In this document: positions 26,394 to 42,091 of the stretch, in pieces | Layout: each line of letters starts with the position of its first letter | Position numbering within the stretch: position 1 is the stretch's first letter | Source: Haloarchaeobius sp. HME9146 | Lineage (GTDB): Archaea; Halobacteriota; Halobacteria; Halobacteriales; Natrialbaceae | DNA: 64,000 nt | Direction of reading: 5' to 3' | NCBI RefSeq assembly: GCF_025399835.1 | Contig: NZ_JAODVR010000002.1 | Coordinates: 248,001 to 312,000 of the forward strand | Position numbers and translations under genes: made by a program | The notes under the pieces: generated by a model | Told to the model about the DNA's origin: nothing | Seen by the model: only the letters and a program-made list of their open reading frames with translations | The model's database searches: none

Positions 26394-27866
26394 TCAGCGC
26401 CTTGCAGCTGCAGCTTCGAGCGCGGCTGGCGCATAGATGACGCCTGCTCCCACGTCGGCGTCGCCCTTTCCGTTGCTTCCTCTCGCCGTGTTCTCGATGA
26501 TACTCTGGACCTCCTTCGCACCGAGGTCGGGGTTGACCTCGCGGATGAGCGCGACCAGGCCAGCTACCTGTGGCGCGGCCATCGAGGTCCCCGCGTACCA
26601 GGCGAACGCCTCCCCGTCGTTCAGGTCCGGTGGGACCGTCGAAAGGACGAGATTAAGTGGGAACGGCCACTCGGTGTCTGCCGCGAGTGTCTTCTCGAGC
26701 GTCTCGTACCCGCCTCCGGGTGCGCCGACGTCGATGTCGCTGGTGCCGTAGTTGGAGTAGAACACGCGCTTGTTGTTCGGACCGGTCGCGGAGACGCTGA
26801 TGGACCCCGGCACGCTGTTCGGGAGCGTGTAGTACCCTTCGTGCTGAAGGTCGGCGCTGGCGTTGCCGGCGCTCGTGGTGACGACGGTGCCGCGCTGGAC
26901 CGCCGACTGGATGACGCGCTGGTATGCGACGTGCTCCTTGGTCTGGTGGTACGGTCCCTTGATGACGCCCCCGCCGAGGCTCATGTTCGCTGCGTCCGCT
27001 CCGATCGTCCCGGCGTAGTCGATGGCGCTCAGGATATCGAAGTCGGTCGTCCAGAGGGCGGTGACCGTGACCTCGTCACCCTCGTACGGATAGCCCTCGT
27101 ACTTCTTCCAGTAGAACACGCGAAGCGGGATGACATCGGCGTCGGGGGCCATGCCCGCGATGCCGAAGTCCTCGCCGACGGACGTATCGTCGTGTTTGGC
27201 CGTCGCGATACCGGCGCAGTGGCTCCCGTGGGAGTCGATGTCGTCGCCTGCCGCCTGTTCGCGCGTGTCCGGCTCTCCCAGGTAGATGTAGGACCCGATC
27301 TCGGGGCCGCCCGGGAACCTGGCTTCGATGGTCGTATCCCCCGCGACTGTCGGCGACCCGTCGGGACTGGATGCGCCGTCAGCCCGGAAGAGCATCCCAT
27401 CTCCGATGTTGTTCCGGAGGTCCGGGTGGAAGGTGTCGATACCGGTGTCGATGATGGCGACGCTTCGGTCCGCGCCAGTCGCCGTGTCGTGGGCCTCGAA
27501 GGCTCCCGTTGTCTTGTCCTTCTTGTCCCACTGGAGGGGCGCGAACTGCTCGTCGGTGGACTCGTCCGTCGAGGTCTCGGCTGGCCCGACCGCACGGTAG
27601 CCGATGTTCTCGCGCACGTCGACGACGCCGCTGGTCCCGCGCAGGGTGTCCGCGTCGGCGGCGGCGACGAGCAGTACCTGCCCGTCTGCGATGGACGCCA
27701 GGACGTCGGCGTCACTTCGTTCGAGTCGGTTCTTCGCACCCTTCCCCCGGACCGTGACGACGAACTGGTCTCGGCCGTCGGCCGCGCTCGCGACACCCAT
27801 CGTCGTCAGTGCTGTCGCGCCGGCCGCAACGGACTTCATGAATCGCCGTCTGCTATGGTCTGTCAT
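26394..27866 (-). CDS. Subtilisin-like serine protease (halolysin type), Tat-exported
   Basis: 490 residues. MTDHSRRRFMKSVAAGATAL is a Tat signal. A propeptide (about 35-115) precedes the S8 domain. The triad is complete: Asp140 in IIDTGID, His213 in SHGSHCAG and Ser428 in AGTSMAAP. The protein ends soon after the catalytic domain, so the C-terminal extension known from halolysins is absent. An upstream ATG at 27896 is in frame, but a TATA-like ATATATGACC lies about 30 bases before 27866, favouring the shorter leaderless start. Haloarchaeal subtilases are exported folded and degrade extracellular protein. The gene ends a small minus-strand stretch. Confidence 0.93.
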   Translation of the reverse strand: MTDHSRRRFMKSVAAGATALTTMGVASAADGRDQFVVTVRGKGAKNRLERSDADVLASIADGQVLLVAAADADTLRGTSGVVDVRENIGYRAVGPAETSTDESTDEQFAPLQWDKKDKTTGAFEAHDTATGADRSVAIIDTGIDTFHPDLRNNIGDGMLFRADGASSPDGSPTVAGDTTIEARFPGGPEIGSYIYLGEPDTREQAAGDDIDSHGSHCAGIATAKHDDTSVGEDFGIAGMAPDADVIPLRVFYWKKYEGYPYEGDEVTVTALWTTDFDILSAIDYAGTIGADAANMSLGGGVIKGPYHQTKEHVAYQRVIQSAVQRGTVVTTSAGNASADLQHEGYYTLPNSVPGSISVSATGPNNKRVFYSNYGTSDIDVGAPGGGYETLEKTLAADTEWPFPLNLVLSTVPPDLNDGEAFAWYAGTSMAAPQVAGLVALIREVNPDLGAKEVQSIIENTARGSNGKGDADVGAGVIYAPAALEAAAARR

Positions 27867-28249
27867 ACCAGCCAATGGTAACCGGCGAATGGTCATATAT
27901 CTGAGGGTCGTTCAGGCGGATTGCCCCTTCTCGAACATGCCGGAATCCGAGACGGTTTGAACCGCTCCGGGGTATAGGCCTGAGGGGATCGTGTTGTTCA
28001 TCTGGAGACCGCAATACTGAATCGAGATATCGTTTCGACCAGTTAACTTTCCATCACTTACTCGGTCCTCGGGTTGACGGTGATCGCACGTGGCACCACG
28101 GCCAGAGAGGACGGTCCGGTGCGTTTCACATGGCAGGGGCAGGTAGCGGCGAGAGCAGTCGTTGCCGGTCCGGGTCAGCAACAATGCCTCCCGGCCAGAC
28201 CTGAACCTGCACGATACACTCAAACGACAGCAGCAGGTTAGGACTGAGT
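27867..28249. other. Divergent intergenic region
   Basis: About 380 bases between the protease and MBL-hydrolase genes. The protease promoter box lies at about 27893-27900. I see no convincing coding frame in the rest; the GATATCG and TTAACTTT strings near 28030 are the only AT-rich parts. Confidence 0.4.
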
Positions 28250-29458: not shown

Positions 29459-30643
29459 CTATGCACGGAGTCGCTTGATCATCCGCGACAGCCGAGAGCG
29501 AATCGAGGCCTGTTTCGGTTCGGGTGGTTCTCGTTCGCTCTGGGCCTCATCCATCCGTCGTTCGAATTCCAGTCGCTCTTGGGCTCGGGCTTGCCGTTCT
29601 TTGTCGAGGTCTTCTCGTGCGAAGGCGAGCTTCTCGTCGAGGTCGTCGACACGCTTCGTGAGGAGTTCGTTGCGTTTGCGAAGACTGTAGAGTTCATTCT
29701 GCGTCTTCCGGTCGAGCGTGGTCGACTGGACGGGCTCGGAGGAAGCATCCTCGGCCGGTGGAGTATACACATCTCCCGTCACGTTGACCGCACGCTCTAT
29801 CGTCCGCTTCCCGTAGGTCGTCCCGTCCGAATAGTGGACTTCGTCCCACTTGGGTCGATGGAGCCCGGACTGGCGAAACAGGCGGTCGATTCGAGATTCA
29901 TCGTTGGCCGTCCAGAACGCGAGCAGGCAACAGAGTGCCATGTCGGCCTCGGAGTGGCTCTCGTAGCCGGTCGTGTTCCCACCCCAGAGTCGCGTGAACT
30001 TCTGGCCGTTCTCGGCAGATTGGGCCTTCTCGAGGAGCTCCGAATCGTCGAGCGTGGTCGACGTTCCCATTGAGGTGCTCCCTGTGGCGTGTTGTGCCGA
30101 CTGCTCGGGTTTCCGTTCCTTCGGAGGCGAGACGTATGTCCGGTACATCGCGTCGAAGGCGACCTGCCGAGGCTCGACCGCGGGAGAGCCGGTGGCGAGT
30201 CGGTCCCCAGTCATCGTGAAGAACCGGCCAGAGTCGTAGCACTCGACCGACCCCTTCCGCGAGCGACTGCCTGGAATCGAGCCCTCGAGGATCACGTGGA
30301 CGCCCGTTCCAGAGGGGCTGACCTCGGTGTACGAGTCGAGCCGGTCGACGATGTCCTGCGCACGACTATCGAGCGCGCCTCCTGCCCGGCAGTTGTCGAG
30401 GTCAACCCCCAGGAACGGGTCGTCGTCGGTGAACACGAATCCAAGGCCGAGGTTGCTACGGAGTGCGCGACACGCGTTCTCGAAGTCTGTCCACGTGTCC
30501 GGGTCCGAGACAGACGCGTACTTCTTCATCCGCGGAACGACCGGGAGCTTGGTCCGCTTCCCGTTCCGGATCACTTCCCGCCAATGGACCCACTGGTCGT
30601 ACTCGCGGAGAGCTTCCGGGATTACCTCCGTGTCGACGGTCAT
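29459..30643 (-). CDS. Primase-polymerase-like protein (NrS-1/AEP type)
   Basis: 394 residues. An N-terminal domain with the region FLGVDLDNC (near residue 76, Asp pair typical of archaeo-eukaryotic primase catalytic sites), SPSGTGVHV and YDSGRFFTMTG resembles phage and plasmid primase-polymerases of the NrS-1 type. A middle helix-bundle region has KWDEVHYSDGTTYGKRT, similar to the domain that follows the polymerase in those proteins. The last 100 residues are coiled coil and basic. I see no helicase domain in this protein. Its start overlaps the stop of the VirB4-like gene (ATGA, 30640-30643), so it is the last gene of the transfer-like operon and could prime the complementary strand of transferred DNA. 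Confidence 0.75.
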   Translation of the reverse strand: MTVDTEVIPEALREYDQWVHWREVIRNGKRTKLPVVPRMKKYASVSDPDTWTDFENACRALRSNLGLGFVFTDDDPFLGVDLDNCRAGGALDSRAQDIVDRLDSYTEVSPSGTGVHVILEGSIPGSRSRKGSVECYDSGRFFTMTGDRLATGSPAVEPRQVAFDAMYRTYVSPPKERKPEQSAQHATGSTSMGTSTTLDDSELLEKAQSAENGQKFTRLWGGNTTGYESHSEADMALCCLLAFWTANDESRIDRLFRQSGLHRPKWDEVHYSDGTTYGKRTIERAVNVTGDVYTPPAEDASSEPVQSTTLDRKTQNELYSLRKRNELLTKRVDDLDEKLAFAREDLDKERQARAQERLEFERRMDEAQSEREPPEPKQASIRSRLSRMIKRLRA

Positions 30644-32682
30644 GGCGATTCACCTCCATCGGCTCGGGGAATGCTCGTGGACGTCTGGTCGAGGCTGGCC
30701 TGCACCGTCCGTGACGGCCCCGGTGAGACAGGGGGTTCGGAGCTGTTCTGCGTCCCCTCCACAGCCCCAGCCAGCACCTCACGTTCGTAGGGACTGGCGC
30801 GTACCCGCAGGGGGAACCAGCCGGCTTCGTCGATACCCAGCAGTGCTTCGGAGAAGCCGTCTTCTTCGTTCCCCGCCTTTGCGGTTCGGACCCAGTTCGC
30901 CTCGCGCTCGCTCAGGCCGAACCACTCGGCGAGTTTGTCGGCCTCCTCGTTCACCCGGTGGATGAGCGTGAGCGAACAGAGGCTCGCGATGGTCCGGGCT
31001 TCCGGCGTCAGTGCGAACTCGCCACCTGTCTGGGTGATGAACTGCAGTGAGAGATCGTAGTGCCTGCTGTGTCTGACCGCCGTTTCGAGGAAGCCGAGCG
31101 AGGTGGCATCGTTGAACAGGTAGTGGGCCTCGTCGATGACGAACACGACGTTCTTGTCCGTCCCCTTGGCGCGCTCGTAGACGGCGTTGAACAGCACCTG
31201 CATCATGAGACTCGTCTGGGCACGGCCACGGACGCCCTCCTCCTGGTGCAGATCCAGGTAGACGACGGGCGACTCGAGGTCGAACTCGGTGGGACGGGCC
31301 AGATTGGCGAGGTCACCATCCGGCCGGAACGAGGGCCGCAGGTCCGTCAGCAGGGAGCGTGCATCGACGCGGACACGCTCCTGTTCGCCCTCCGTCGGAT
31401 AGTCGAACGAGCCGGGGTCTTCCAGCATCGTTTCCAAGACCGAGATGAGGTCGGTGATCGTGGGTGACGGCTGGCCGTGCGTCGCCGGGTCGCGGGTGAT
31501 GCCCTGGTGCTCGTAAGTCTCCTGGACCGCCCGCCTGAGCGTCTGGGTGCGCTCTCTGAGTGGGTTCGCGGCCACGTGCTCGAAGAACGTCTCGAAGAAC
31601 GTGAGCACCCACGCGACCTGCTCCGCCCACGGGTCGAGGTCCGAGACCGATTCGAGGACGCTCGCGGGCGTCTCACGAAGTTCGAGCGGGTTGAAGCCAC
31701 GGGTGCCGCCTACGGTGATGCGTTCCCCACCGAGGGCGTCGTTCACGCTCGCGAAGCCCTCGAGCGGGTCGAGCATCACGATGACCGTCTCCGGGTCGTA
31801 CATCGCCCGCCGAAGGAGCTGGAGCTTGGTCGAGAACGACTTGCCAGCGCCGAGTTTTCCGATGACCATCGCGCAGTACCCGGTCTCGCGGGCGAACCGG
31901 TCGAGGATGAGCGGGCTCTCGTTGAGCGCGTAAGTGCCATACTCGATGCCGGGTTCTGCGAACGAGCCCGCGACGAACGGGAACATCGCACCGAGCGCCC
32001 CACCGAGCATCGGCGTCGTCGTCTCGAACGATTCCTCGAGTTTGTCCACCGCGACCGGACTGGCCGAGATCAGGGCATCGAGTTGCTGCCAGCGCGGCGT
32101 GACCGGCGTCAGGTTGGTCGGCGACCGCCTGGCCACGCCCATCACAGCATCCACGTCAAGGACGTCCTCGGTCCCGCCGTGGAGGCTCAGGTACATCGAG
32201 ACGTCGAATGCCTCCATCGACGTGTTCCGCAGCACGTCGTAGAGGTCCTGGTAGTCTTCGAGATCTTTCCGGACGCCACGAGCGCCAGCGCGATGGCGCT
32301 CGGTGAGGTACTCGAAGTCCGCCTCGAGGTCTTCGATCTTGTTCTCGAGGGCGTCGAGCGTGCGAGCCGTATCGCGCGGGTCGATGTGCAGCGAGATGTC
32401 CGTCTCGCGGGTCTCGGGCGTCGCATAGAGTGACTCGAACAGCCCATCGACCGGTGCGTCGGGGAACTCACCCATCCAGAGCGTGCGTCGCCAGCGGTCG
32501 CCCGTTCGAACCGAGTTCGGATGCCGTTCGAGGCTGTCCGGGCCGACAAGCGTCTGGTGGACCGTCGATTGGTCACCCAGGCCGCGGTCGCTCCCGGTGT
32601 ACTCCTCGGCACCGTCTCGGTCGGCTGTGTGGTCACGAGCCGAATCGGGCGAGCGTCGTCTCCGGAGCCAGCGTCGAATCAT
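30640..32682 (-). CDS. VirB4/TraC-like conjugation ATPase
   Basis: 680 residues. Walker A GKLGAGKSFS (about residues 273-282) and Walker B VVFVIDEAHYLF (about 510-521) are those of VirB4-type secretion ATPases. A long N-terminal domain of about 260 residues carries a helical segment (LDALENKIEDLEADF) as in VirB4 proteins. LQFITQTGGEF after the Walker B region is also typical. The protein would power pilus assembly or DNA transfer at the membrane. Both ends overlap neighbours by ATGA: start 32682 with the PrgI-like gene, stop 30640 with the primase-like gene. Confidence 0.88.
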   Translation of the reverse strand: MIRRWLRRRRSPDSARDHTADRDGAEEYTGSDRGLGDQSTVHQTLVGPDSLERHPNSVRTGDRWRRTLWMGEFPDAPVDGLFESLYATPETRETDISLHIDPRDTARTLDALENKIEDLEADFEYLTERHRAGARGVRKDLEDYQDLYDVLRNTSMEAFDVSMYLSLHGGTEDVLDVDAVMGVARRSPTNLTPVTPRWQQLDALISASPVAVDKLEESFETTTPMLGGALGAMFPFVAGSFAEPGIEYGTYALNESPLILDRFARETGYCAMVIGKLGAGKSFSTKLQLLRRAMYDPETVIVMLDPLEGFASVNDALGGERITVGGTRGFNPLELRETPASVLESVSDLDPWAEQVAWVLTFFETFFEHVAANPLRERTQTLRRAVQETYEHQGITRDPATHGQPSPTITDLISVLETMLEDPGSFDYPTEGEQERVRVDARSLLTDLRPSFRPDGDLANLARPTEFDLESPVVYLDLHQEEGVRGRAQTSLMMQVLFNAVYERAKGTDKNVVFVIDEAHYLFNDATSLGFLETAVRHSRHYDLSLQFITQTGGEFALTPEARTIASLCSLTLIHRVNEEADKLAEWFGLSEREANWVRTAKAGNEEDGFSEALLGIDEAGWFPLRVRASPYEREVLAGAVEGTQNSSEPPVSPGPSRTVQASLDQTSTSIPRADGGESP

Positions 32683-33689
32683 CGTCGCCCCCGGACCATC
32701 GGCCCCGTTCGAAGCGTCTGGGCAACGTCCCGGTCGGTCCCGGTATGCCCACCCCAGAACGAATCGAGTAACGCGACCGTGTCAGCCGCGGAGACCCGGC
32801 TCGCGTTACACCCCTGCATCTCCCTGATACCGGCCCTGAGCCGGGCCAATCGGTCGTCGAGTGCATCGTGCATGGCCGTGCGCTGTTCCTCGATAGGTGG
32901 TGCAGAGAGTACTCGAACGAACGCGCCGAGGACTGGAATCGTGGTCAGTTGCTGGGAGAGACTCTCGCGCTCGAAGCGCACCTCGTCCGGGCCGACCGGC
33001 ACAACCACGTAGTGGTCACGAATGGTCATCTGGCGCGCATCGAGGTCTGCGGCGTACCACTCTGCGTAGTTCTCGATGAGTGCAGCCAGGCGTGGATTCG
33101 CCTGCACGTCCGGGTCGCCGAGGCGAGCCTCGTAGTGTGCGAGATACTCTTCGACCGGGAATGCCTGTGTAGTCGCATAGAGCTGAATCGGGAAGGCGAC
33201 GCTCGTGTTCAGGAAGTCCTGGAAGTCATTCGCCATCGCCGCCCACTCTTCATCCGTCGCCAGCGCGAGCATGGGTGGGTCGACCCTGAGCAAGCCGACG
33301 AGAGTCCCATCGGTGCGCTCGATGAATCCCGATACCGGGTCGATCTGCTGAACCTGGGTGTACTCCCGGGCAGTCTCGTGTGGGAGGCGTTTCTGTCGTC
33401 TCCGGTACCCCACCATGGTGAACACCCAGTCGAGGCTCGACGTGTGCGCGGGCGTGAGGTAGACGAACACCCCACCGACCAGGGCTGCAACGGCTGCCAC
33501 AGGGAGCACCAACAGCTCGACCGAGAATCCACCGATGGTCATTCCGGGTGGGACCAACAGCTGCGTCCCCAGGACGACGACCACGGCCGGGACCAGCCCG
33601 ACTGCGAGGTCGCTCAACGTGTACTGCCCGAGGAGCTTGGTCTCGGTTCCCAGCGACTTCGGGACCCGCTTCGCTTGCTCATTCGGCAT
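32679..33689 (-). CDS. PrgI-like conjugation membrane protein
   Basis: 336 residues. After a short cytoplasmic N-terminus there are two membrane helices (about residues 27-45 and 52-80), then a large soluble domain. Small two-helix PrgI proteins in Gram-positive and archaeal conjugation operons lie next to a VirB4 ATPase, as here. The soluble part (about 110-300) has the look of the VirB4 N-terminal domain region. The frame stays open to 34007, but the ATG at 33689 is the one inside the 3' end of the VirB6-like gene (11-base overlap), fitting coupling. The product is probably part of the inner-membrane platform. Confidence 0.75.
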   Translation of the reverse strand: MPNEQAKRVPKSLGTETKLLGQYTLSDLAVGLVPAVVVVLGTQLLVPPGMTIGGFSVELLVLPVAAVAALVGGVFVYLTPAHTSSLDWVFTMVGYRRRQKRLPHETAREYTQVQQIDPVSGFIERTDGTLVGLLRVDPPMLALATDEEWAAMANDFQDFLNTSVAFPIQLYATTQAFPVEEYLAHYEARLGDPDVQANPRLAALIENYAEWYAADLDARQMTIRDHYVVVPVGPDEVRFERESLSQQLTTIPVLGAFVRVLSAPPIEEQRTAMHDALDDRLARLRAGIREMQGCNASRVSAADTVALLDSFWGGHTGTDRDVAQTLRTGPMVRGRR

Positions 33690-34908
33690 CGGAGTCACCT
33701 CGCGGGGTCTTGTGGGTGCTCGATGCCTCCGGGCTCGGTGCTGGTGGGAGCGCCCGGGGACGCAGTGTATCGAAGCTGGTGTTTCGAGACTCTTTAGGAC
33801 GGGTACTACCACCGGGTCCGCCCTTGCCACCACGCCGGCCCCCTGGTGTGATCGCATCCGAGAGGCGACTGCCTGCATCACGGACTCGGGCCCCTGCACC
33901 GTGTGCCCGAGAGCCACCAGAGCCCAGCATGTACTGCCCATCGCGTCGCACCGCAACGTCACCACGAAGGCCACGGGAGAAGTTGCGGCCGCCCTGGGTG
34001 GCAGCAAGCCCGGTATCGCGGGTTCGAGCCATTCGGTGCTGTGCGCGACGACGGGACATCTGGCCGGCGATGCGCTGGGTCGCGACGAATACAGCGCCCG
34101 CCTGCCAGAACAGGATGAGTGGCGCGATGATGGCCATCAAGGGAACGATGAGCGCGAGAATCCACGCGCTAAGCCCATCAATCGATAACCCGAAATTCTT
34201 GCCGAGGAGTCCACTGAACTGAAGCAGGATAGCCACTGGGACCGTCATGAACAGGAACGGGAGGTAGAACCCAGCAAGTCGGATCATCAGTCTAGACATG
34301 AGGGCAAATGGACCAACCCCTGGTATCCAGAGGGCGATGAGGATGGGCATCAACAAGACGTACATGTACAGCGCGACATGGCGCACGATGTACAGTAGTA
34401 GAATCGCCACGACAAGCGTGAGATTCACTGCTTGCGAGATTGCGTAACCGAGCACCCCAATTCCTGCGAATGAAATGGACTGGACCAAGTCGACGTCGGA
34501 CAAATCCGGTGCAAGATAGACAGCAAGTACATCGGTGAACTGTAGCGATAGTGCGGCAATCCACCACCACGATAGAATTCCGAGTAGACCCGTGACTGCC
34601 CGCTTCTTCAATTTTGACCGGTGGTAGCCACTGAACAGGTGACTCGTCGCTTCGAGGAAGATAACGAGCCCGACTGCGAGTCCCCAGAGGAATAGAGAGA
34701 GCGGGATGATGGTCTCCCAGTAGTATTCGTAGACCGATGGCCAAGGCGTGTTTGTCGGAGACGTGAAGATGGTATTTGGTGCAGGTGCACCGACAACTAC
34801 TGCGATGACCTCATTCCCGTATTCTTCCACAAGTCCCTCGACCGGAGCGAATAGGAATTTCAGAAACTCCTCGATTGCCCGGACGATTACGTCTTCTAAT
34901 TCTCCCAT
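33679..34908 (-). CDS. VirB6/TrbL-like polytopic membrane protein
   Basis: 409 residues with about seven membrane helices between residues 55 and 290, then a basic Gly/Arg/Pro-rich cytoplasmic tail of about 120 residues. The topology, with a pair of early helices followed by a dense cluster and a long soluble tail, matches VirB6 or TrbL channel components. Primary sequence gives no other motif. It starts 13 bases inside the upstream lipoprotein gene and ends 11 bases inside the PrgI-like gene. In a transfer apparatus it would form the inner-membrane pore. Confidence 0.72.
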   Translation of the reverse strand: MGELEDVIVRAIEEFLKFLFAPVEGLVEEYGNEVIAVVVGAPAPNTIFTSPTNTPWPSVYEYYWETIIPLSLFLWGLAVGLVIFLEATSHLFSGYHRSKLKKRAVTGLLGILSWWWIAALSLQFTDVLAVYLAPDLSDVDLVQSISFAGIGVLGYAISQAVNLTLVVAILLLYIVRHVALYMYVLLMPILIALWIPGVGPFALMSRLMIRLAGFYLPFLFMTVPVAILLQFSGLLGKNFGLSIDGLSAWILALIVPLMAIIAPLILFWQAGAVFVATQRIAGQMSRRRAQHRMARTRDTGLAATQGGRNFSRGLRGDVAVRRDGQYMLGSGGSRAHGAGARVRDAGSRLSDAITPGGRRGGKGGPGGSTRPKESRNTSFDTLRPRALPPAPSPEASSTHKTPRGDSDAE

Positions 34909-35777
34909 CTCGACCTCTTGATGGCACTAATTTCTACGCTCGATTCACTGCAAGCGTACTCCCCAAGCAGGTCTTGGTTAATCTCATCACCGTCGATCTG
35001 ACCAGCTAGGTCAACCTGAATCATTTCACCGGTTGCGACTCCTATCAAAGCACGAATCTCGAAAATTCCCAGGTCGCACCCAGAGTATTCCCGAGATGAG
35101 AAGCGTAGCGGATTGGATTCGGGGACGAGTTCCACCTGTTCGTTTGGACCCAAGACCAAGTCTGGAGCTTCACTCGGAGACTGTAGTTTTGGAAGACCAG
35201 GAAAATCGCTAAGCGGATCGTTCGCCCCAAAGTTAGGTGCCCCCTCATAGGTAATGTCGAATATCCAGGTAGGAGCAGTACCTTGGTTCTCCATCCGGAA
35301 CAGTAATTTTCCTTGCCTCAAGCCATCGCGAGCAACCGAATTCACTTCGATATCGACCAACTGGACATCTGGTTCTAAGCTCAGCTGAGTTCGCTTGACA
35401 GAATCCTCAGTGATGACCACTAATTCGTGGATGCCAGGACTGTAATGTCTATATCTACTGGATAGCTGTCTGAGCTCCAGAATCGGAATCCGAACGGTGG
35501 TCGCTCCCCTCGTAACGGACTTGCTGGCGAACGCAGTCCCGTCAGGCGAGATGAGGTTCAACTTGGATACTGCGGCGTCCGGTCGTAGGCCGACGACGAG
35601 GTCCATCCCCTCGAAGCCTATTTCAGTTACCACGTCAGGGAGCTCCTCGGTTGTCGTCGCAGTTTCAGAAGCCTCGGGCTCTCCGGAATTCGAATCGTTC
35701 AGACAGCCGGCGAGTAGCCCAGCCCCCGTCAGACTCGCACCTGCGAGGAACCGGCGACGGCCATACTGCCCCGTCAT
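34896..35777 (-). CDS. Element-encoded Tat lipoprotein
   Basis: 293 residues starting MTGQYGRRRFLAGASLTG, with a Tat motif and a lipobox Cys six residues further. The ATG at 35777 overlaps the stop of the upstream gene by ATGA, so it is favoured over the longer frame to 35795. The mature protein is beta-rich and has less extreme composition than the neighbours (more Lys, Ile and Asn), suggesting different ancestry. It belongs to the transfer-like operon by overlap, and may be an exterior component of the apparatus. Confidence 0.75.
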   Translation of the reverse strand: MTGQYGRRRFLAGASLTGAGLLAGCLNDSNSGEPEASETATTTEELPDVVTEIGFEGMDLVVGLRPDAAVSKLNLISPDGTAFASKSVTRGATTVRIPILELRQLSSRYRHYSPGIHELVVITEDSVKRTQLSLEPDVQLVDIEVNSVARDGLRQGKLLFRMENQGTAPTWIFDITYEGAPNFGANDPLSDFPGLPKLQSPSEAPDLVLGPNEQVELVPESNPLRFSSREYSGCDLGIFEIRALIGVATGEMIQVDLAGQIDGDEINQDLLGEYACSESSVEISAIKRSRWEN

Positions 35778-37489
35778 CGGAGGACACCTCGCCACGGTGG
35801 CCAGACGCCCCAGCCGGTGATGCGGTCGATGATGAACACGCCGAGTAGAATCGAGCCGAGCGGTATCGCCATGTTGTAGAGCAGTTGAATCACGGCCAGC
35901 GGCGAACCTTCGACGTAGAGCACGTCGGCAGCAGGCAGATGCGGGGCATCATCGTCCCACCAGGTCCCCGGGTCGTACTCAGCCGCATAAACGTTCCTGC
36001 GCGGGAGGGTGATTCTCCCCACACCGTCGATACCCGTCTCGACCGGATTCCCATCCACGGTGACCGTCCCGCCGATGCGTTCGGTGCTGATGGGCGCGCC
36101 GCTCACCGTCTCGTTGAGCCGAACTTCCAGAGTTACCGTCTCCTCGGTCGCCTCGGTGACAGACAACCGAAGCGTGCTCTTGGTGAGTGGATTCGTCTGT
36201 ACGGACGAAATCGCTCGCTGTCCCGAGACACCCCTGACGAGGCCGTAGACAGTGAGTGAGGGGGTCAGATTCGCGGCCTCGTGGCGCGCGACGACGCGGT
36301 CGCTCACGGTGTAGGTTCCGTTCGGGGTCCGAAGTTCGACGAGGGGTGGGAGTTCCGGTGTGTCTCGTTCGACGCCATCCGATGCGAGGAGCTGCACCGG
36401 CCCGGTTCCGGTCGCAGGTCGGTCGCCCCATGCTGGCGCGGGATAGGCGTGCACCTGGAGCGGGAGCGCCGAGGAGTTCTGGACCGTCGTGTTGTTCGCG
36501 GTCGTGACCACCAGCGTATCCCACGAAGCATCCCGAGCGGAGTAGAACGCCCAGCGACCGTCGACGGTGGCCTCGCTGGTCGCGTACCCACGCCACGGCT
36601 GGGTCGCACTGACCTCGAGGCCGAGGTCGCCATCAGGGTATTCGACACCCGTCGCCGACGAGACCAGCTCGTACGCGGTGACGGCTACCGAATCGTCGAC
36701 CGTCATGAACTCCGTCACGGTCGTCGAGTTGTTCGCAGGGACGCCCGGACAGGTCGTGTTTGGACTCCCACCAGGTGGTGAACAGGACGAATTGAGCGGT
36801 TCGACGGTTCGGTTAAGCGCGACCGTGATGGTCACGTCGACCACGAGGTCGTGCTCGGTCCCCGCGTACTCGTCGAGGCGCGTGTACTGCAGCCTCGGTC
36901 GTTTCGACCCCAGGCTCACGTCTTCGACCTGCCCGTCTACCAGAAGTCGAACGGGTGAGACGGTCGTCTTCTCCAGCGCCCAGGAGACGCGATGCGTCGA
37001 GTTGTTCGTGGCTGCAGGGACGGCGATCCGATAATCCAACGTCGCCAACACGGTTCCGTCTGCGGCCACGTACAGCGGTTCGTCATCCAGGGCGATGTGT
37101 GCCCGCGTCGACGGCTGGACGGCGAAGACGGTCACGTGTGCGTCCCTGACGAACTGGCCGGAGCGAGGCGTCGCGGCCTGTGGGTAGACCGAGACGGTGT
37201 GGTCTGTCCGGGGGTAGTCCTCGATGTCACCGGCGTTCCACCGCTCAACGGCCGGTGGTGGGGCCGCGAATGGGATGTCGGTCAGGGCACTCAGTTCCTC
37301 GAAGGCCGAGGCGTTCTCGTCGACCGTCCGGTTGTCGAGATCGCCCGCCCAGAGCGGGTAGAACGTCTCGTTGGAGAGGCCGTGGTCCAGCCCCGGTGGT
37401 GCTCCTGGGCGTGAGGCAGCACTCTGGACGGCTGCGAGCAGGGCCACCGTGACGACGAGGAGTGCGACCTGTGCCCTCAGAAGGCGCAA
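35774..37489 (-). CDS. Large membrane-anchored extracellular protein of the transfer-like operon
   Basis: 571 residues with an N-terminal signal helix (about 6-24), a long extracellular part rich in N-x-S/T sequons, and a C-terminal membrane helix (about 545-565) ending in a short basic tail. Several beta-rich segments (Ig-like) are visible. I recognise no domain. Position between the VirB2-like and lipoprotein genes, with overlaps of 13 and 4 bases, suggests a surface-exposed component such as an adhesin or mating-contact protein. Confidence 0.7.
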   Translation of the reverse strand: MRLLRAQVALLVVTVALLAAVQSAASRPGAPPGLDHGLSNETFYPLWAGDLDNRTVDENASAFEELSALTDIPFAAPPPAVERWNAGDIEDYPRTDHTVSVYPQAATPRSGQFVRDAHVTVFAVQPSTRAHIALDDEPLYVAADGTVLATLDYRIAVPAATNNSTHRVSWALEKTTVSPVRLLVDGQVEDVSLGSKRPRLQYTRLDEYAGTEHDLVVDVTITVALNRTVEPLNSSCSPPGGSPNTTCPGVPANNSTTVTEFMTVDDSVAVTAYELVSSATGVEYPDGDLGLEVSATQPWRGYATSEATVDGRWAFYSARDASWDTLVVTTANNTTVQNSSALPLQVHAYPAPAWGDRPATGTGPVQLLASDGVERDTPELPPLVELRTPNGTYTVSDRVVARHEAANLTPSLTVYGLVRGVSGQRAISSVQTNPLTKSTLRLSVTEATEETVTLEVRLNETVSGAPISTERIGGTVTVDGNPVETGIDGVGRITLPRRNVYAAEYDPGTWWDDDAPHLPAADVLYVEGSPLAVIQLLYNMAIPLGSILLGVFIIDRITGWGVWPPWRGVLR

Positions 37490-37869
37490 CTCGCACCTCC
37501 AGCGACGACACTGGTCAGCAGGAACTGGATGATGACAGTCCCGAGCGGGGCGACGATGACACCCCAGACGATGCCCTGGTTGCGCACCTCTTTCAGCTCC
37601 TGCTTGAGGTCGGAGCGTCGAACCATCGGCGTCGCAACTGCGGCCCCGAGCGCGAGCAAGCCCCCGACGAGGGGACCGCCGAACTGGATGACAGAGAACA
37701 GATTCCGGATGGTATCCGCCATATCGGTGGTGCAGAATGCACTGCCACTCCCCTGGGCGAGCACAGGCATACTGAACACGGTGATCATTATTCCACCGAG
37801 GATCACCCAGCGAAGGGCGTGTTTCGTACGGTCGATACCCGTTGCTAATCGTGCAGCAGTTGCGGTCAT
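37477..37869 (-). CDS. Small two-helix membrane protein, VirB2/pilin-like
   Basis: 130 residues with a hydrophobic N-terminal region (about 20-40, signal-like, ending near AQGSGSA), then two membrane helices (about 60-85 and 105-125) joined by a short basic cytoplasmic loop. This is the architecture of VirB2/TrbC pilins and of small conjugation membrane proteins. The long frame reaches 37995, but the ATG at 37869 gives a normal signal. A TATA-like CTTTATGC lies about 100 bases upstream, and a 14-base palindrome (38060-38073) lies further back. It is the first gene of the overlapping seven-gene operon. Confidence 0.65.
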   Translation of the reverse strand: MTATAARLATGIDRTKHALRWVILGGIMITVFSMPVLAQGSGSAFCTTDMADTIRNLFSVIQFGGPLVGGLLALGAAVATPMVRRSDLKQELKEVRNQGIVWGVIVAPLGTVIIQFLLTSVVAGGASCAF

Positions 37870-38059
37870 GGTATATGGAAGAACGACACCTCTCGGCGAA
37901 GCACAGCTAGACAAAGCTCGCAGGCACCGCAGCGGATGAAGTTCCACTGGATACCTCAATCGGCGATAGCATAAAGGTATGCAACTGATTAGCACAGGAT
38001 AATTCCAATTACTAGTCTAGAAATACCAACTGGTTTGTATTGATATTTCAGAGCTACCG

Positions 38060-38073
38060 ACAGAGTACTCTGT
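38060..38073. promoter_or_regulatory. Perfect 14-base palindrome ACAGAGTACTCTGT
   Basis: The sequence is exactly self-complementary. A further half-site ACAGAG begins at 38083. It lies in an AT-rich spacer about 90 bases behind the TATA of the transfer-like operon and just past the end of the Cys-rich mini-protein gene. It is a candidate operator or element-control site. Confidence 0.45.
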
Positions 38074-38098
38074 ATACCTCGAACAGAGTGGCCCCACA

Positions 38099-38338
38099 TC
38101 AGGTTTCGAACGTTCGTGCCCCAGTCCGGTAACAGTGCCAGCAGGGGAAGCCGTCGGTCAGGTCTTCACAAGCGCATTCGTCCTCTCCGTCCTGTTCGTC
38201 AGCGGCAGTCTTCCGACCGCCATCGGTCAGGATTCCCGGTACGCTCTCTGTTGGGTGCCTCCCCTCATCAGCAGGGCCTTGACATCGGTGTCGACGCGCC
38301 TGCTGCAGTTCATGGTCGTTGTTGCTGTCTGGTTTCAT
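38099..38338 (-). CDS. Cys-rich mini-protein, putative zinc binder
   Basis: 79 residues, polar and acidic, with a C-terminal Cys cluster CACEDLTDGFPCWHCYRTG. The C-x-C and C-x2-C pairs could bind one zinc. I recall similar PCWxCYR-type motifs in short haloarchaeal proteins. A promoter of the type shared by its upstream neighbours (TATA-like GATTCTATCG then the palindrome CCCCTGAGGGG) lies about 40-60 bases upstream, inside the 3' end of the TFB gene. Function unknown, perhaps a regulator. Confidence 0.6.
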   Translation of the reverse strand: MKPDSNNDHELQQARRHRCQGPADEGRHPTESVPGILTDGGRKTAADEQDGEDECACEDLTDGFPCWHCYRTGARTFET

Positions 38339-38375
38339 CCGTATGACGAGGTGGTCGATTCGGCAACCCCCCGCA

Positions 38376-38400
38376 CCCCTCAGGGGGCGATAGAATCGGC
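38376..38400 (-). promoter_or_regulatory. Promoter-palindrome element A (upstream of 38338)
   Basis: Read on the minus strand: GATTCTATCG (TATA-like) directly followed by CCCCTGAGGGG, a palindrome around one central base (38376-38386). The TFB stop codon TGA is the middle of this palindrome. The next bases, GTGCGGGG, are also shared with element B. One of four similar elements in this cluster. Confidence 0.5.
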
Positions 38401-39282
38401 TGCGGAGAGTTCCCTGTACCGAGCCCGAAGCGTGGTGGCCGTCGACCCCGCCGCGTCTGCGATGGCTTTCTGAGTCAGTGGGTATCTCGCCTCCCGCACC
38501 GCCAGATACAGACAGGCCGCCGCGATACCGGATGGACGCCGGCCATTCGTCAGTCCCTGTTCCCGTGCTCGTCTCCCGAGTTCGCGGGCGCGACGCGAGA
38601 GGTCGTCCGGGACGTCGAGTTCAGAGAGGAGTCGCGAAAGTCGGGCATCGTAGGAGGTCGGCTGGGTATCGAGCTGGAACTGTTTCTGCAGGGCGCGATA
38701 GCACGCATCAACCAGGCCTGCGGGACATTCCACACAGCAGAGCACCTCCTCGCGAGTTCTCCCAAGCCCACGACAGCGACACGTCGCGTAGACACAGGCC
38801 GCGGCCATCGCCTCGACCGACCGCCCAAGAAGCAGGTCTGCCGTCTGGGCGGCACGGAACAGGGTCGACGCTTCCTCGCGGACAGTACGAGAGAGGTCGA
38901 GCATCCCGCTCAGTCGCGACACCTCTCGACAGCCACGGGAGAGGTTCTGTTCGGCCGTCGACTGCCAGCGCCCACGGTGATGCTCGCGCTGCATCCGGTA
39001 GACACGCCGTCGCTCACGGGCCGAGAGTTGGTTCCCCTTCGAGTCCCTGGTCACCCAGATCGCGGTTGAGAGCCCGCGGTCGTGCCTCGTCGCTGTAAGC
39101 GGGGCACCCGTATGCTCGAATTGGGTGATGCCCGGTTCGAAGGCTGGTCCATCGACGATGAGGCCACAGTCACGACAGCTCGTGTCTGCTGCCTCGTGGG
39201 TGAGTCGGCCACCGCATTCGTTGCATCGAGTCGATCGGGAGTCGGTTCTAGCCGTCGCTGGTTGAGTTCGTTCTGACGACAT
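38380..39282 (-). CDS. tfb: Transcription initiation factor IIB (TFB) paralogue
   Basis: 300 residues. An N-terminal zinc ribbon (CNECGGRL, then CRDCGLIVD about 16 residues later) precedes a B-finger region and two cyclin-fold repeats (about 100-190 and 200-295). ACVYATCRCRGLGRT and AACLYLAVREARYPLTQKAIA are the usual helix pairs of each repeat. Haloarchaea encode many TFBs that direct RNA polymerase to promoter subsets. This copy diverges from typical housekeeping forms in the linker. The ATG at 39282 was preferred over an earlier start nine codons up. It lies in the element-like cluster, so it may favour the element's own promoters. Confidence 0.9.
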   Translation of the reverse strand: MSSERTQPATARTDSRSTRCNECGGRLTHEAADTSCRDCGLIVDGPAFEPGITQFEHTGAPLTATRHDRGLSTAIWVTRDSKGNQLSARERRRVYRMQREHHRGRWQSTAEQNLSRGCREVSRLSGMLDLSRTVREEASTLFRAAQTADLLLGRSVEAMAAACVYATCRCRGLGRTREEVLCCVECPAGLVDACYRALQKQFQLDTQPTSYDARLSRLLSELDVPDDLSRRARELGRRAREQGLTNGRRPSGIAAACLYLAVREARYPLTQKAIADAAGSTATTLRARYRELSAADSIAP

Positions 39283-39291
39283 GGTCGAAAC

Positions 39292-39325
39292 GGGGCGAAC
39301 GCCCCGCACCCCCAGTGGGCCGATA
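39292..39325 (-). promoter_or_regulatory. Promoter-palindrome element B (upstream of TFB)
   Basis: Minus strand: GATTGTATCGGCCCA, then CCC-ACT-GGG and GGGGTGCGGGG, followed by the perfect inverted repeat GGGGCG-TT-CGCCCC (39292-39305) just before the TFB ATG. Over about 35 bases the layout matches element A. Confidence 0.5.
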
Positions 39326-39398
39326 CAATCGCTCTACAGCATGACCCGCAAAACGAGCCATCTGGGCCGGCTTCTCTCGTCCGACTCTTCGAGGTTCA

Positions 39399-39872
39399 TC
39401 ACCTGACAAAGACGCCTTCGGGCCCAGGAACCACTCCAGCTTCGCAGGCGAAGAGCACGCGCCGGTAATGCTTGCATCCGCCCTTAGGAGCGCGTTTTAC
39501 ATGGTCCGGGCAGGAGCACGTCTTCGATTCGAGGTCCACCGTGTACGTCTTTCCTGATTGGCTGTGTATCCTGTATCTCGGCCCGATGTCACCGAACTTG
39601 ACCTCCATTTCTTCGGTTAAGGCGCGGTACGTCCGTGGGTCCTCAATCTCGTAGCCAGTACTGGTCAACAGTCCGGGGAAAGTGACCGCGCCGCACGACT
39701 CCGAGAACTCCTGCTCCGTCAGCCGTTCCTGGCCACAGGCACGACACCTGACGTAGGTCCGGTCATGAGTCTGCGTTCCTCTCGTGGTGGCTCGTTCGGT
39801 CACCCGAACGAGCAGGTGTTCGTGAGTGTCGGTTCTGCGGTGCTTCTCTGCGGTCTGGAATTCTATCGACAT
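39399..39872 (-). CDS. SWIM zinc-finger protein
   Basis: 157 residues. Near the C-terminus CSCPDHVKRAPKGGCKHYRRV matches the SWIM pattern CxCx(n)CxH, which binds zinc and interacts with DNA or protein. A second pair (CRACG, about residue 42) may form another metal site with a later Cys. The ATG at 39872 is preferred over 39887 from the distance to the TATA-like ATTTTATCGG. SWIM proteins in haloarchaeal plasmids and elements have no settled role; some accompany recombination proteins. Confidence 0.8.
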   Translation of the reverse strand: MSIEFQTAEKHRRTDTHEHLLVRVTERATTRGTQTHDRTYVRCRACGQERLTEQEFSESCGAVTFPGLLTSTGYEIEDPRTYRALTEEMEVKFGDIGPRYRIHSQSGKTYTVDLESKTCSCPDHVKRAPKGGCKHYRRVLFACEAGVVPGPEGVFVR

Positions 39873-39902
39873 TGGTTCAGGAGGCACGTGACGCGCCTCA
39901 GC

Positions 39903-39925
39903 GCCCCGGGGCCGATAAAATCGAT
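39903..39925 (-). promoter_or_regulatory. Promoter-palindrome element C (upstream of the SWIM gene)
   Basis: Minus strand: CGATTTTATCG (TATA-like), directly followed by the perfect 10-base palindrome GCCCCGGGGC (39903-39912). Same arrangement as elements A and B. Confidence 0.5.
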
Positions 39926-40067
39926 AACTGATTCAGATTAGTCACCAATCGTCGAGATACGTTTGGAGTGCATCGCTACGGTCACGATCTCGGCCGAGGT
40001 GGCGTCGTTCGAACTGTTCGTGGCTATCGGATTCGCATGGATAGTGGCATAGGTTGTGGGAGGATGC

Positions 40068-40346
40068 TTACTCGCTGATGTCGATGCTCGGGTCGAACGC
40101 TCGTGCGGCTTCGGCGAGGCGGCACAGCTTCGGGAACAGTTCGTCGATGTCTGCTTTCGCCTGTTCGACGGTCGGTGCTTTCACCGTCCCTTCGAGGCGC
40201 TCCTGGTCACGAGTCCCGGTTCCCCGGGTCATCGTGAGCTTGATCGATGCCCCCGTGTCGGTTCGGTAGATGTGCTCGGTCGTCTCGAAATCGTCTGGTA
40301 GGCTGTGCTGATCGTCGTCGTGCGGTGGGTCTGTATTGGTTTCCAT
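40068..40346 (-). CDS. DUF7389-like small protein
   Basis: 92 residues, with an acidic N-terminus and a beta segment including SIKLTMTRGTGTRDQER, which I recall from a haloarchaeal family labelled DUF7389. A helical C-terminal half follows. The upstream ATG at 40364 lies inside a perfect inverted repeat of the promoter, so I start at 40346. Often found on plasmids and elements. Function unknown. Confidence 0.72.
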   Translation of the reverse strand: METNTDPPHDDDQHSLPDDFETTEHIYRTDTGASIKLTMTRGTGTRDQERLEGTVKAPTVEQAKADIDELFPKLCRLAEAARAFDPSIDISE

Positions 40347-40355
40347 CTGAGGAAT

Positions 40356-40386
40356 CTCCCTCACTCCTGAGGGAGGGATAAAATAC
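40356..40386 (-). promoter_or_regulatory. Promoter-palindrome element D (upstream of the DUF7389-like gene)
   Basis: Minus strand: GGTATTTTATCC (TATA-like), then the exact inverted repeat CTCCCTCA-GGAG-TGAGGGAG (40356-40375). It covers the region from just below the TATA to the expected transcription start, so a bound protein would block initiation. Confidence 0.5.
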
Positions 40387-40494
40387 CGTGTGGAAGGGCC
40401 AGACCGATCTTCCTACAGGAGCAACTCTACCGGTTCGGGTCGTACGGGTTCGTCGTCATCTCAAGCCGATAGGCCGCTTCGAAGATACCCTCGT

Positions 40495-41214
40495 TTATCT
40501 TCTGATGCGCCACCGTCCCCCGAGTTCGTCACGTTCGAAATCGTTGTATTTCCCGTCTCGAAAGGTTGTCACACGCCCGTTCTCTTCACTGAGTGTCACC
40601 GCGGCAAGGACCTCTTCGCGGAGAGAGATCTCGAGCGCACTGAGATGCTTGGTCCCCATCCAATTAGCAGACGCAATGGGTGGCTCTTCGGTTGGTTCGG
40701 TAGCACTCGGGCTTCGAACACGAACCAGTTGTTCCTGTATCGTCCGGTCTGCAGCGATCACGACCGCCCCATCGCAGCTGAACGCCACGTTGCGGGCAGC
40801 ATTGATGAACTCGTCAGATGAGATCGTGACTGCTGGACAGTGCTTGACAGGCCAGGTATTGTCTCCTAACGGGTCGGTGTACTTGCCGAAATCGATGTCT
40901 GCGACGATGATGAAATAGAGACTCGGTCCGGTCACGTATCGTTCATCCCATCGGGTGAAGTTTAGACTCAAACTCTCAGCACTATATCGAAGAATATCGA
41001 TTGTTTCTGGGAGAGTCGCGTATTCCGCCTGACCGACATTGGGTCCTGTAATCATTATCTGACCGCTTGGCTCATTTAGGAGGAGCACCAGTTTGAGTTC
41101 TCCGCCTGTCGTTTTCCGCTTGACCCGCACTCGGAGACGCAGGATTGTGCTCGCACGATGTGTCAGTCTCTTGGCTTCGTCCCCGTGCGGAGGTTCTCGC
41201 GGTACTCGCCCCAT
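40495..41214 (-). CDS. Diverged diadenylate-cyclase-like (DAC/DisA_N) domain protein
   Basis: 239 residues as drawn. The C-terminal half aligns with the DAC domain order: DGAVVI (about residue 148, the DGA motif), then GTKHLSA (about 187) where active enzymes have GTRHR, then LSEENG and TTFRDG. DAC proteins make cyclic di-AMP, and haloarchaea use the family member DacZ. Here DGA is kept but the RHR triphosphate-binding motif reads KHL, so activity is uncertain. The N-terminal 100 residues are unrecognised. The start is uncertain: the ATG at 41214 overlaps the upstream gene by 52 bases, and a GTG at 41130 is an alternative. Location in an element-like region suggests signalling, or interference with host signalling. 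Confidence 0.65.
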   Translation of the reverse strand: MGRVPREPPHGDEAKRLTHRASTILRLRVRVKRKTTGGELKLVLLLNEPSGQIMITGPNVGQAEYATLPETIDILRYSAESLSLNFTRWDERYVTGPSLYFIIVADIDFGKYTDPLGDNTWPVKHCPAVTISSDEFINAARNVAFSCDGAVVIAADRTIQEQLVRVRSPSATEPTEEPPIASANWMGTKHLSALEISLREEVLAAVTLSEENGRVTTFRDGKYNDFERDELGGRWRIRR

Positions 41215-41432
41215 GCCCGGTAGCGTTCGCCCCGTTCGTCTTCGGTCAGGGTATCGTGTTCCGCTTCGTCATAGAACGGGAGTTCCTCCTTCTCAGGCAT
41301 CTCCAGCAAGCGGCCAAGGGGGTAGAGTTTCTCGTAGTATTGCGCTAGCACCCACGTCTCACCGTGTTTCGCGACGGCTTGCTCGATGACCGGAGCTGCA
41401 TCTGGATAGTCCGCTTCGAACGTTTCTTTCAT
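41163..41432 (-). CDS. Small acidic hypothetical protein
   Basis: 89 residues, rich in Glu, Asp, Tyr and Arg, helical in appearance, with no signal. It lies 54 bases below the gene ending at 41487 and overlaps the DAC-like frame, so the three may be one transcript. No family recognised. Confidence 0.55.
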   Translation of the reverse strand: MKETFEADYPDAAPVIEQAVAKHGETWVLAQYYEKLYPLGRLLEMPEKEELPFYDEAEHDTLTEDERGERYRAWGEYRENLRTGTKPRD

Positions 41433-41486
41433 TGGGAGTGCCGATTGGCTCTCTGGAGTGTGCTGATTGGACCCACCTGCTGGCGG

Positions 41487-41843
41487 TCAGGCATCGGTGT
41501 ATTCGGCGAGAGAGTGGTTCGAGCTCTCTGCAGTCCACTTGCCGATCTGGATGAACTCGAACGCCTCGATGGGTACGTCGCGCACCTCTGAAAGCTGTGA
41601 CTGGACCGTCGGAGAGAGTTCACCGATGGGAATCACGGTGAGGCCGTGCTGGGTGAGGAAGTAGCTGCTCGCCATGGACGTTGGAGCGATGACGATGACG
41701 TCCGCGCCATCGGTCTCTGTAAGCGCGAGTTCAGCGTCTCGACCCTGCAAAACCTCCGCGTCGAGGTCGCCGACAGGGAAGAGAACGCTCGCATCTCCGT
41801 GGTCGATGCTGGCACCTGCCGACCCGAAATGCCCTTTGGTCAT
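41487..41843 (-). CDS. Small hypothetical protein of the element-like cluster
   Basis: 118 residues from the ATG at 41843 (a second ATG at 41849 is two codons upstream). An alternating beta/alpha pattern with ADVIVIAPT and LTVIPIGEL suggests a compact alpha/beta fold. A TATA-like CATAAATTT and the palindrome TTAATG-GG-CATTAA lie just upstream. Probably the first gene of a small operon with the next two. No function recognised. Confidence 0.6.
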   Translation of the reverse strand: MTKGHFGSAGASIDHGDASVLFPVGDLDAEVLQGRDAELALTETDGADVIVIAPTSMASSYFLTQHGLTVIPIGELSPTVQSQLSEVRDVPIEAFEFIQIGKWTAESSNHSLAEYTDA

Positions 41844-41863
41844 AATCAAACAGAAATTTATGC

Positions 41864-41877
41864 TTAATGGGCATTAA
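41864..41877. promoter_or_regulatory. Perfect inverted repeat TTAATG-GG-CATTAA
   Basis: Six-base arms with a two-base spacer, lying about 20-35 bases before the ATG at 41843, at the expected BRE/TATA position. A repressor bound here would occlude the promoter. Confidence 0.45.
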
Positions 41878-41954
41878 TCTTGTGGGCAGGAACGACCCAG
41901 ACCACAGATAGAGTTCGCAATCAGCACTGAAACGGGCAAGCGGCGCTGCCGGCC

Positions 41955-41980
41955 CTCGTGACCTCCTCCCCGCCGTGAAA
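41955..41980. other. Possible end remnant of an IS200/IS605-type element
   Basis: The string CGTGACCTCCTCCCCGCCGTG is similar, from memory, to conserved ends of haloarchaeal TnpB-carrying elements (a CCTCCCCGCC...GTGAA motif). No transposase gene or second end is visible nearby, so if real it is only a scar. Confidence 0.2.
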
Positions 41981-42091
41981 TGTTGCTGAAAGAAGAGAGG
42001 GATTGGCCTATCGAGAGACCCTACATACAATATACTGCAAAATTGGACTCAGGAGTGTAGACGGGCGAGAGTGGATGTTGAGACACCAGGA

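Follow-up and report, generated by a model that had tools for sequence, protein, structure and literature searches.

Archaeal conjugative elements lack a relaxase, and how they begin DNA transfer is still an unanswered question (PMC3158045, PMC9905601, PMC12857230). A locus on a 675-kb replicon of the salt-loving archaeon Haloarchaeobius sp. HME9146, which we analysed within a window of 64,000 nucleotides, raises this question in a concrete form, in that it provides an enzyme domain, a DNA site and a nearly complete list of components for what would be relaxase-less transfer. With a predicted nuclease on the DNA pump and a conserved hairpin element, the question becomes testable, and some haloarchaea are genetically tractable.

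Extent and distribution of the locus

At positions 29459-37869 lie seven genes, all on the minus strand and overlapping head to tail, as a preliminary description of this DNA had stated. With the start codons as used, the overlaps measure 4, 4, 14, 13, 22 and 13 bp, a slightly wider range than the 4-13 bases first given. The bounds of that description were too narrow: the transfer locus is 29459-47633, which adds genes for a coupling ATPase, an RPA-like OB-fold protein, a TFB and a SWIM protein. Missing from that description were the coupling ATPase and the nuclease-like domain it carries, as well as the OB-fold gene and the hairpin element. The features are as follows.

29459-30643, minus strand: NrS-1-type primase-polymerase with AEP and HBD and no helicase domain (PF22763 1.6e-29; phrog_1829 7.6e-92; PDB 6k9a/6a9w ~1e-36)
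30640-32682, minus strand: VirB4 ATPase (NCBIfam CD1110 5.5e-41; family profile against PDB 4ag5 4.1e-27)
32679-33692, minus strand: VirB3/PrgI-like membrane protein, apparently fused to a TrsD/VirB4-N-terminal-like domain (hydrophobic helices; TrsD match)
33679-34908, minus strand: VirB6/TrbL-like polytopic protein (PF19590 2.9e-19, over the cut-off)
34896-35795, minus strand: Tat lipoprotein of a conserved orphan family (RRRFL...LAGC in the sequence)
35774-37489, minus strand: large ectodomain protein of a conserved orphan family (N-terminal hydrophobic segment and one C-terminal TM; 21-member alignment)
37477-37869, minus strand: VirB2-like pilin candidate (conserved signal peptide, two hydrophobic helices, two invariant Cys)
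38380-39309, minus strand: TFB, archaeal TFIIB (PF00382 5.3e-33)
39399-39887, minus strand: SWIM-type zinc-finger protein (weak SWIM match)
42824-43786, minus strand: RPA-like OB-fold protein (NCBIfam replication factor A 5.1e-14, residues 224-307; PF01336 7e-6)
43717-44003, listed on the plus strand: conserved covarying hairpin element (core 43787-43913; inverted repeat 43799-43816/43836-43853)
44136-47633, plus strand: VirD4/TraG-like coupling ATPase, whose C-terminal part, about residues 843-1165, comprises a Zn ribbon, a winged helix and a PD-(D/E)XK-like domain (PF10412 1.6e-8; PF12696)

The operon is not a chance arrangement, since neighbourhood comparison recovers its order in ~40 further loci and VirB4 relatives occur in 247 of 392 Halobacteriales genomes. 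Conserved order elsewhere, which had been proposed as a check, is found on plasmids as well as chromosomes and in many genera. A 13.8-kb transfer module shares 87-93% DNA identity across plasmids of Halobellus, Haloplanus, Halobaculum, Halorientalis, Haloarcula and Halorubrum. Relatives of the locus are patchily distributed among genomes, with up to several copies per genome, and the SWIM protein has a homolog in the same place in locus L034 and in other loci.

Several ideas about its boundaries and origin were rejected. No Phage_integrase match lies within about 130 kb of the locus, which argues against an integrase-bounded ICE and also counts against the conjugative reading, as it leaves the transferred unit undefined, and a tRNA attachment site was discarded because the window holds no tRNA. 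As to a viral origin, viral contigs contain no relative of the ectodomain family and only two distant relatives of VirB4, whose phage matches show 20-27% identity.

Proteins of the operon

The matches listed above bear out four of the earlier identifications, namely the primase-polymerase, the VirB4-like ATPase, the VirB6/TrbL-like protein and the lipoprotein, the last through its Tat RR motif and LAGC lipobox. The primase has both the AEP catalytic motifs and the HBD of the NrS-1 primase-polymerase; D81, D83 and H116 are invariant among 45 homologs, and Thr replaces the Asp of the NrS-1 SPSGDG.

Two further identifications stood in part. The protein first called PrgI-like has no PrgI Pfam match, and neither do its 22 homologs. 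Its residues 123-232 do match TrsD (2e-5), as is also the case for 12 of the 22 homologs (best 3e-9), and its gene adjoins that of VirB4; judged by sequence, it looks like a fusion in which a TrsD-like domain has been joined to a VirB3-like part. For the VirB2-like protein the proposed topology holds, with a signal peptide, a conserved xAQ cleavage site and two helices, while similarity in sequence is weak and confined to some homologs (TrbC/VirB2 PF04956 at 0.002 in 4 of 19, T4SS_pilin PF18895 at 2e-4 in 3 of 19). The sole PDB match of the family is to VirB2, again weak (E=3.7). By sequence the VirB2 and PrgI identities are putative and weak, a point that counts against reading the locus as a conjugation system.

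So does the presence of two orphan subunits, the ectodomain protein and the lipoprotein, which that reading leaves unexplained. Lipoprotein homologs occupy the same position in related loci. No relatives of the ectodomain protein were found in Pfam or PDB, and its AlphaFold model has a pLDDT of 49; a fusexin-like ectodomain was considered and, at the sequence level, the PDB search gave no match.

The hairpin element, the coupling ATPase and the relaxase question

The genes of the locus diverge from the hairpin element, both arms pointing away from it. A known RNA family was rejected for want of any Rfam match. The element is present in 200 of the 392 Halobacteriales genomes, together with the coupling ATPase in 171 (odds ratio 25.6, p=6e-43) and with VirB4 in 184 (odds ratio 23.5). 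The start of the OB gene or of a TFB gene follows it at a distance of ~85 bp, and all 36 copies inspected share one orientation. Given its position, structure and co-occurrence, it may be an oriT or a single-strand promoter. The constant distance from OB/TFB starts and the single orientation would equally suit a leader or promoter region that regulates these genes and has no direct role in transfer, and the structured strand is undecided, as GU/AC counts and folding energies disagree. This explanation is weakened by how strongly the element is linked to VirB4 and the coupling ATPase, by its covarying structure and by its central place between divergent arms; a regulator is still compatible with all of these observations, and we regard a purely regulatory role as only a little short of an even bet.

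The coupling ATPase scores over the cut-offs of both PF12696 and PF10412, as expected of a VirD4-type protein. Among close loci, 33 carry it at a distance of no more than 60 kb, and in all of them it is oppositely oriented; in other loci it directly follows VirB4. A second repeated motif upstream of some coupling ATPases, GGGACTGAAAGGG, was rejected as not specific to the locus. The C-terminus, modelled with a pLDDT of 92, is predicted to contain the alpha-beta3-alpha-beta core of PD-(D/E)XK enzymes, and its top fold matches are restriction-endonuclease-like structures, with moderate scores (Z 6 to 7.3; Foldseek E 0.003 or worse) that place the assignment at the level of fold. That these matches are moderate is a further point against the conjugative reading. 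Among 61 homologs, the active-site-like residues E1018, D1061, E1076 and E1078 are invariant, and a second type of coupling ATPase has its own version of the pattern (PDA...ExETTT...K). The domain is thus a predicted PD-(D/E)XK nuclease; catalysis is unproven, given the moderate fold matches and a motif that departs from the textbook (D/E)xK, with ExE and Lys1094 on the next helix.

It is tempting to suppose that this domain replaces a relaxase. Profile searches of the genome for four relaxase/Rep families (PF03432, PF08751, PF02486 and PF25227) returned nothing, which removes MOBP, MOBF and Rep_trans/MOBT relaxases and Rep-Arvir (PF25227) as candidates. Plasmids that carry related loci are typed as non-mobilizable. 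In one such plasmid the coupling ATPase is followed by a 674-aa gene, which was rejected as a relaxase since it gives only coiled-coil matches. The preliminary description had likewise recognised no relaxase and considered the mechanism unusual on that account. For these four families the absence holds, but it is not unusual in itself, as archaeal conjugation is known to lack a relaxase in general (PMC3158045, PMC12857230). A different possibility is that the system is conjugative and that an unrecognised or host-encoded relaxase or Rep processes the DNA, the nuclease-like domain serving in DNA binding, exclusion or defence. The four families searched cover part of the MOB range, many of the conserved genes nearby are of no assigned function, and the departure from the textbook motif points the same way; against this, all four families are absent from the genome, and the residue pattern is invariant in the 61 homologs and recurs in the second ATPase type. 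We consider this alternative a serious one, with a chance somewhat below even.

Proposed mechanism and relation to known systems

VirB4, VirB6, VirB3-TrsD-like and VirD4-type proteins, primase, OB-fold protein and hairpin element co-occur in largely conserved order, in many genera and on mobile replicons. The best reading is a relaxase-less conjugative T4SS, kin to bacterial monoderm systems and to Ced/Ted. The earlier proposal of a haloarchaeal conjugation system is thereby supported by the VirB4, VirB6/TrbL and VirB3-TrsD-like profile matches and by the conserved order; with these in hand, neither of the outcomes named as counting against it, failure of the VirB4-like and PrgI-like matches or a gene order found nowhere else, was encountered. 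We put the probability that a haloarchaeal conjugative element has its transfer region at 29459-47633, mechanism included, at roughly 60%.

Under this reading, the VirB2-like, ectodomain and lipoprotein subunits would form a surface junction and VirB6 and VirB3-TrsD a channel, with assembly powered by VirB4. The VirD4-like ATPase would recognise the hairpin element and, after a cut, pump one strand out. We hypothesise that the PD-(D/E)XK-like domain takes the place of a relaxase and makes a cut or nick close to the central hairpin array, that early expression of the hairpin-linked OB gene (or TFB) in the recipient allows the entering strand to be coated or transcribed, and that the NrS-1-type primase primes second-strand synthesis there. 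The full combination, in which the nuclease of a VirD4-type pump acts at a hairpin array serving at once as origin of transfer and as the early (single-strand) promoter of an RPA-like or TFB gene, is speculative and, taken as a whole, rather doubtful. The locus also suggests that haloarchaeal plasmids which standard tools type as non-mobilizable, as they do for 148 of the 153 records that match the coupling ATPase, may be self-transmissible.

A DNA importer of the Ced/Ted kind, in which a VirB4/VirB6/VirB2 core brings in DNA of other cells to be used in repair or recombination, with no need for a dedicated cut, has archaeal precedent with three matching core components and no relaxase (PMC9905601), and the coupling ATPase does match CedB weakly (3.6e-9). 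That match, at 35.8 bits, falls far under the family cut-off of 700 and leaves the protein outside the CedB family, while the patchiness, copy number and plasmid identity of the locus across genera, together with the VirD4-like ATPase and cis element that it has of its own, indicate a self-moving element; an importer is thus improbable. Very unlikely is protein export, common among bacterial T4SS without a relaxase (PMC3158045), or a decayed relic, given that the locus is accompanied by partners that handle DNA, namely a coupling ATPase bearing a nuclease-like domain, a primase and an OB-fold protein, and given the full-length open frames of the seven operon genes, the OB gene and the coupling-ATPase gene in the window, though some relatives carry stops.

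Ced/Ted systems share with the locus an archaeal VirB2-, VirB4- and VirB6-like core and the lack of a relaxase (PMC9905601); the locus differs in being mobile, plasmid-borne and multi-copy, and in its dedicated VirD4-like ATPase with nuclease-like domain and its cis element. Fusexin-bearing integrated elements of haloarchaea have VirB4 and TraG/TraD/VirD4 genes in the portions of PMC9259645 considered, which contain no mention of the operon anatomy, nuclease-like domain or hairpin element; no fusexin was recognised here at the sequence level. The nuclease-like domain on the coupling ATPase and the hairpin element look new. The element resembles Frpo single-stranded promoters of conjugative elements, hairpin-forming and non-coding, directly 5' of plasmid ssb genes (PMC9849209, PMC11541004), as here of a single-strand-binding-type gene; the likeness is one of position and hairpin, the present element being archaeal, unrelated in sequence and also found upstream of TFB. 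Monoderm T4SS of the MPF-FATA class (pCF10 prg, pIP501 tra, staphylococcal trs; PMC3158045, PMC12857230) have VirB4, VirB6 and VirD4 components and, putatively, VirB3-like and TrsD-like parts in common with the locus, where the candidate VirB3-like protein adjoins VirB4 as it does in those systems. Of the features that define that class, the VirB4 ATPase, VirB6/TrbL-like channel and VirD4-type coupling protein are present, whereas no relaxase (MOB) was found among the four families searched; the TrsD-like domain here appears fused to the VirB3-like part, an archaeal surface protein and a Tat lipoprotein are present, and the C-terminal domain of the coupling ATPase is nuclease-like. The conjugative plasmids pNOB8 of Sulfolobus and pT33-3 of Thermococcus (PMC12857230) likewise have VirB4 and VirD4 homologs and no relaxase, but in them mainly the two ATPases have been recognised, whereas the haloarchaeal locus presents a near-complete set of components.

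The operon and its spread

The window covers positions 248,001-312,000 of a 674,682-bp contig. The transfer locus in it comprises two arms, with an OB-fold gene, a SWIM gene and a TFB gene between them:

29459-37869, minus strand: operon for VirB2-like, ectodomain, lipoprotein, TrbL/VirB6, PrgI-like, VirB4 and primase proteins
42824-43786, minus strand: RPA-like OB-fold gene
43717-44003: hairpin element
44136-47633, plus strand: VirD4/TraG-like coupling ATPase, 1165 aa

All seven overlapping operon genes of the preliminary description are present; its overlaps of 4-13 bases hold for four junctions but not for two (4, 4, 14, 13, 22 and 13 bp in order, with starts as used). Three of its assignments are borne out by profile searches: the VirB4-like ATPase (NCBIfam CD1110, 5.5e-41; VirB4_plasma, 9.5e-37; family profile to the VirB4 ATPase structure PDB 4ag5, 4.1e-27), the VirB6/TrbL-like protein (PF19590, 2.9e-19) and the primase-polymerase-like protein (PF22763, 1.6e-29). 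The last also matches NrS-1 primase structures at about 1e-36, and its residues D81, D83 and H116 are invariant in 45 homologs. The proposed two-helix VirB2-like protein has a signal peptide, with a conserved xAQ, and two helices, and its family has two invariant cysteines; TrbC/T4SS-pilin matches are weak and confined to some homologs. Both the ectodomain protein and the Tat lipoprotein belong to conserved families, the former with no relative found in Pfam or PDB.

The PrgI-like protein has hydrophobic helices at its N-terminus, and residues 123-232 match TrsD, as in 12 of 22 homologs (best 3.1e-9); a few homologs match VirB4 models. Its sequence suggests a VirB3-like part joined to a domain resembling TrsD or the VirB4 N-terminus. 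Three small haloarchaeal genomes encode it together with VirB4 in a single open reading frame of about 1030 aa:

L076, 9921-12983
L077, 8613-11699
L078, 7054-10167

Relatives of VirB4 are present in 247 of the 392 Halobacteriales genomes and in 74 of 95 genera; they comprise a close subfamily, at 64% identity or above, and others that are more distant, at around 38-50%. The gene order VirB2, ectodomain, lipoprotein, TrbL, PrgI, VirB4 recurs in other haloarchaea, with VirB2-like and lipoprotein genes sometimes undetected in distant loci; a minority of loci have the primase directly after VirB4, and others have it close to the coupling ATPase. Relatives returned in searches are haloarchaeal, the close named ones including Haloarchaeobius, and the system is essentially absent from the viral contigs searched. 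Plasmids from six genera share a 13.8-kb module at 87-93% identity, which speaks for a recent spread across genera.

Several neighbouring genes were also noted: a Tat-exported subtilisin-like protease near the operon (26394-27896; PF00082, 1.7e-42), a DisA/DAC-like C-terminal match just under cut-off inside the locus (40495-41214; PF02457, 4e-6) and a uracil-DNA-glycosylase-superfamily gene just 3' of the coupling ATPase (48327-49289; PF03167, 1e-9). Adjoining the locus, at 49381-64000, genes for a nucleotidyltransferase, epimerases, sulfatases, glycosyltransferases and a pyruvyl transferase make up a cluster for surface polysaccharide or glycosylation; the transfer locus of pCBA1220-01 is also flanked by a cluster of this kind.

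A coupling ATPase with a nuclease-like domain

The coupling ATPase lies outside the coordinates first reported. Homologs are found in 207 of 392 genomes, and at least 33 of 61 close VirB4 loci have one no more than 60 kb away on their contig, oppositely oriented in all 33. A second type directly follows VirB4 and has its own PDA...ExETTT...K pattern.

In line with the preliminary description, no relaxase of the four families searched was recognised: PF03432, PF08751, PF02486 and PF25227 (Rep-Arvir, a new archaeal family; PMC13107129) were without match in the genome. Related plasmids are typed non-mobilizable. Archaeal conjugation without a relaxase is already known (PMC3158045, PMC9905601, PMC12857230).

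Residues 843-1165 of the coupling ATPase were modelled (pLDDT 91.9), the predicted order being Zn ribbon, winged helix and helix-strand-strand-strand-helix-strand-helix. For the last part, restriction-endonuclease-like proteins lead the structural matches (YaeQ, EcoT38I, Can2, PaqCI, Nt.BspD6I and LlaBIII; Z about 6-7), with NucS, SfsA and Card1 additionally among Foldseek matches; since every score is moderate, the likeness is one of fold. E1018, H1022, R1059, D1061, E1076, E1078, N1081, D1083, D1091 and D1093 are invariant across 61 homologs, and K1094 is present in 58. Because this lysine sits on the following helix, catalysis remains putative.

The hairpin element

The intergenic DNA that separates the OB gene from the coupling ATPase folds much better than shuffled versions (z=-4.45) and contains an 18-nt inverted repeat. 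Homologs occur in many other genera. In the covariation test, 97.3% of cells are paired and 10 pairs changed on both sides, with 0 of 500 shuffles as high and slid controls far lower. No Rfam family matches it. All 36 copies inspected (blast and model searches) are followed, about 85 bp downstream, by an OB gene or, in a few cases, a TFB gene; in the window, genes of both arms are directed away from it.

Searched with a covariance model, 200 of the 392 Halobacteriales genomes have the element; all 13 matches in a 148-genome phylum sample fall within that order. The coupling ATPase is present in 171 of the 200 (odds ratio 25.6; p=6e-43, which overstates independence because the genomes are related), VirB4 in 184 and either in 191. 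The 9 genomes without T4SS or coupling-ATPase matches possibly carry mobilizable elements.

A second repeated motif, GGGACTGAAAGGGGCCG...AAGCACCGCAG, stands upstream of the coupling ATPase in four loci (L137, L138, L139 and L160). Its 13-base core has 20 copies in 3.0 Mb; a number of these lie 200-300 nt before a coupling-ATPase gene, the others elsewhere.

Proposed mechanism and known systems

Computation shows what the components are, their synteny and spread, the nuclease-like fold with its conserved residues, and the structure of the hairpin element and its co-occurrence with the coupling ATPase and VirB4. Beyond this, we propose that the system exports DNA. The fused nuclease-like domain would cleave it, the hairpin element may serve as oriT and/or single-strand promoter, the OB or TFB gene would be expressed early, and the NrS-1-type primase would prime in the recipient.

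VirB4 and TraG/VirD4 genes have an earlier record on haloarchaeal or archaeal mobile elements (PMC9259645, PMC3158045). Searches of the open-access literature turned up no account of the operon anatomy in haloarchaea, the nuclease-fused coupling ATPase or the hairpin element. The single-strand promoter role proposed for the hairpin element is modelled on that of Frpo, located upstream of ssb (PMC9849209, PMC11541004).
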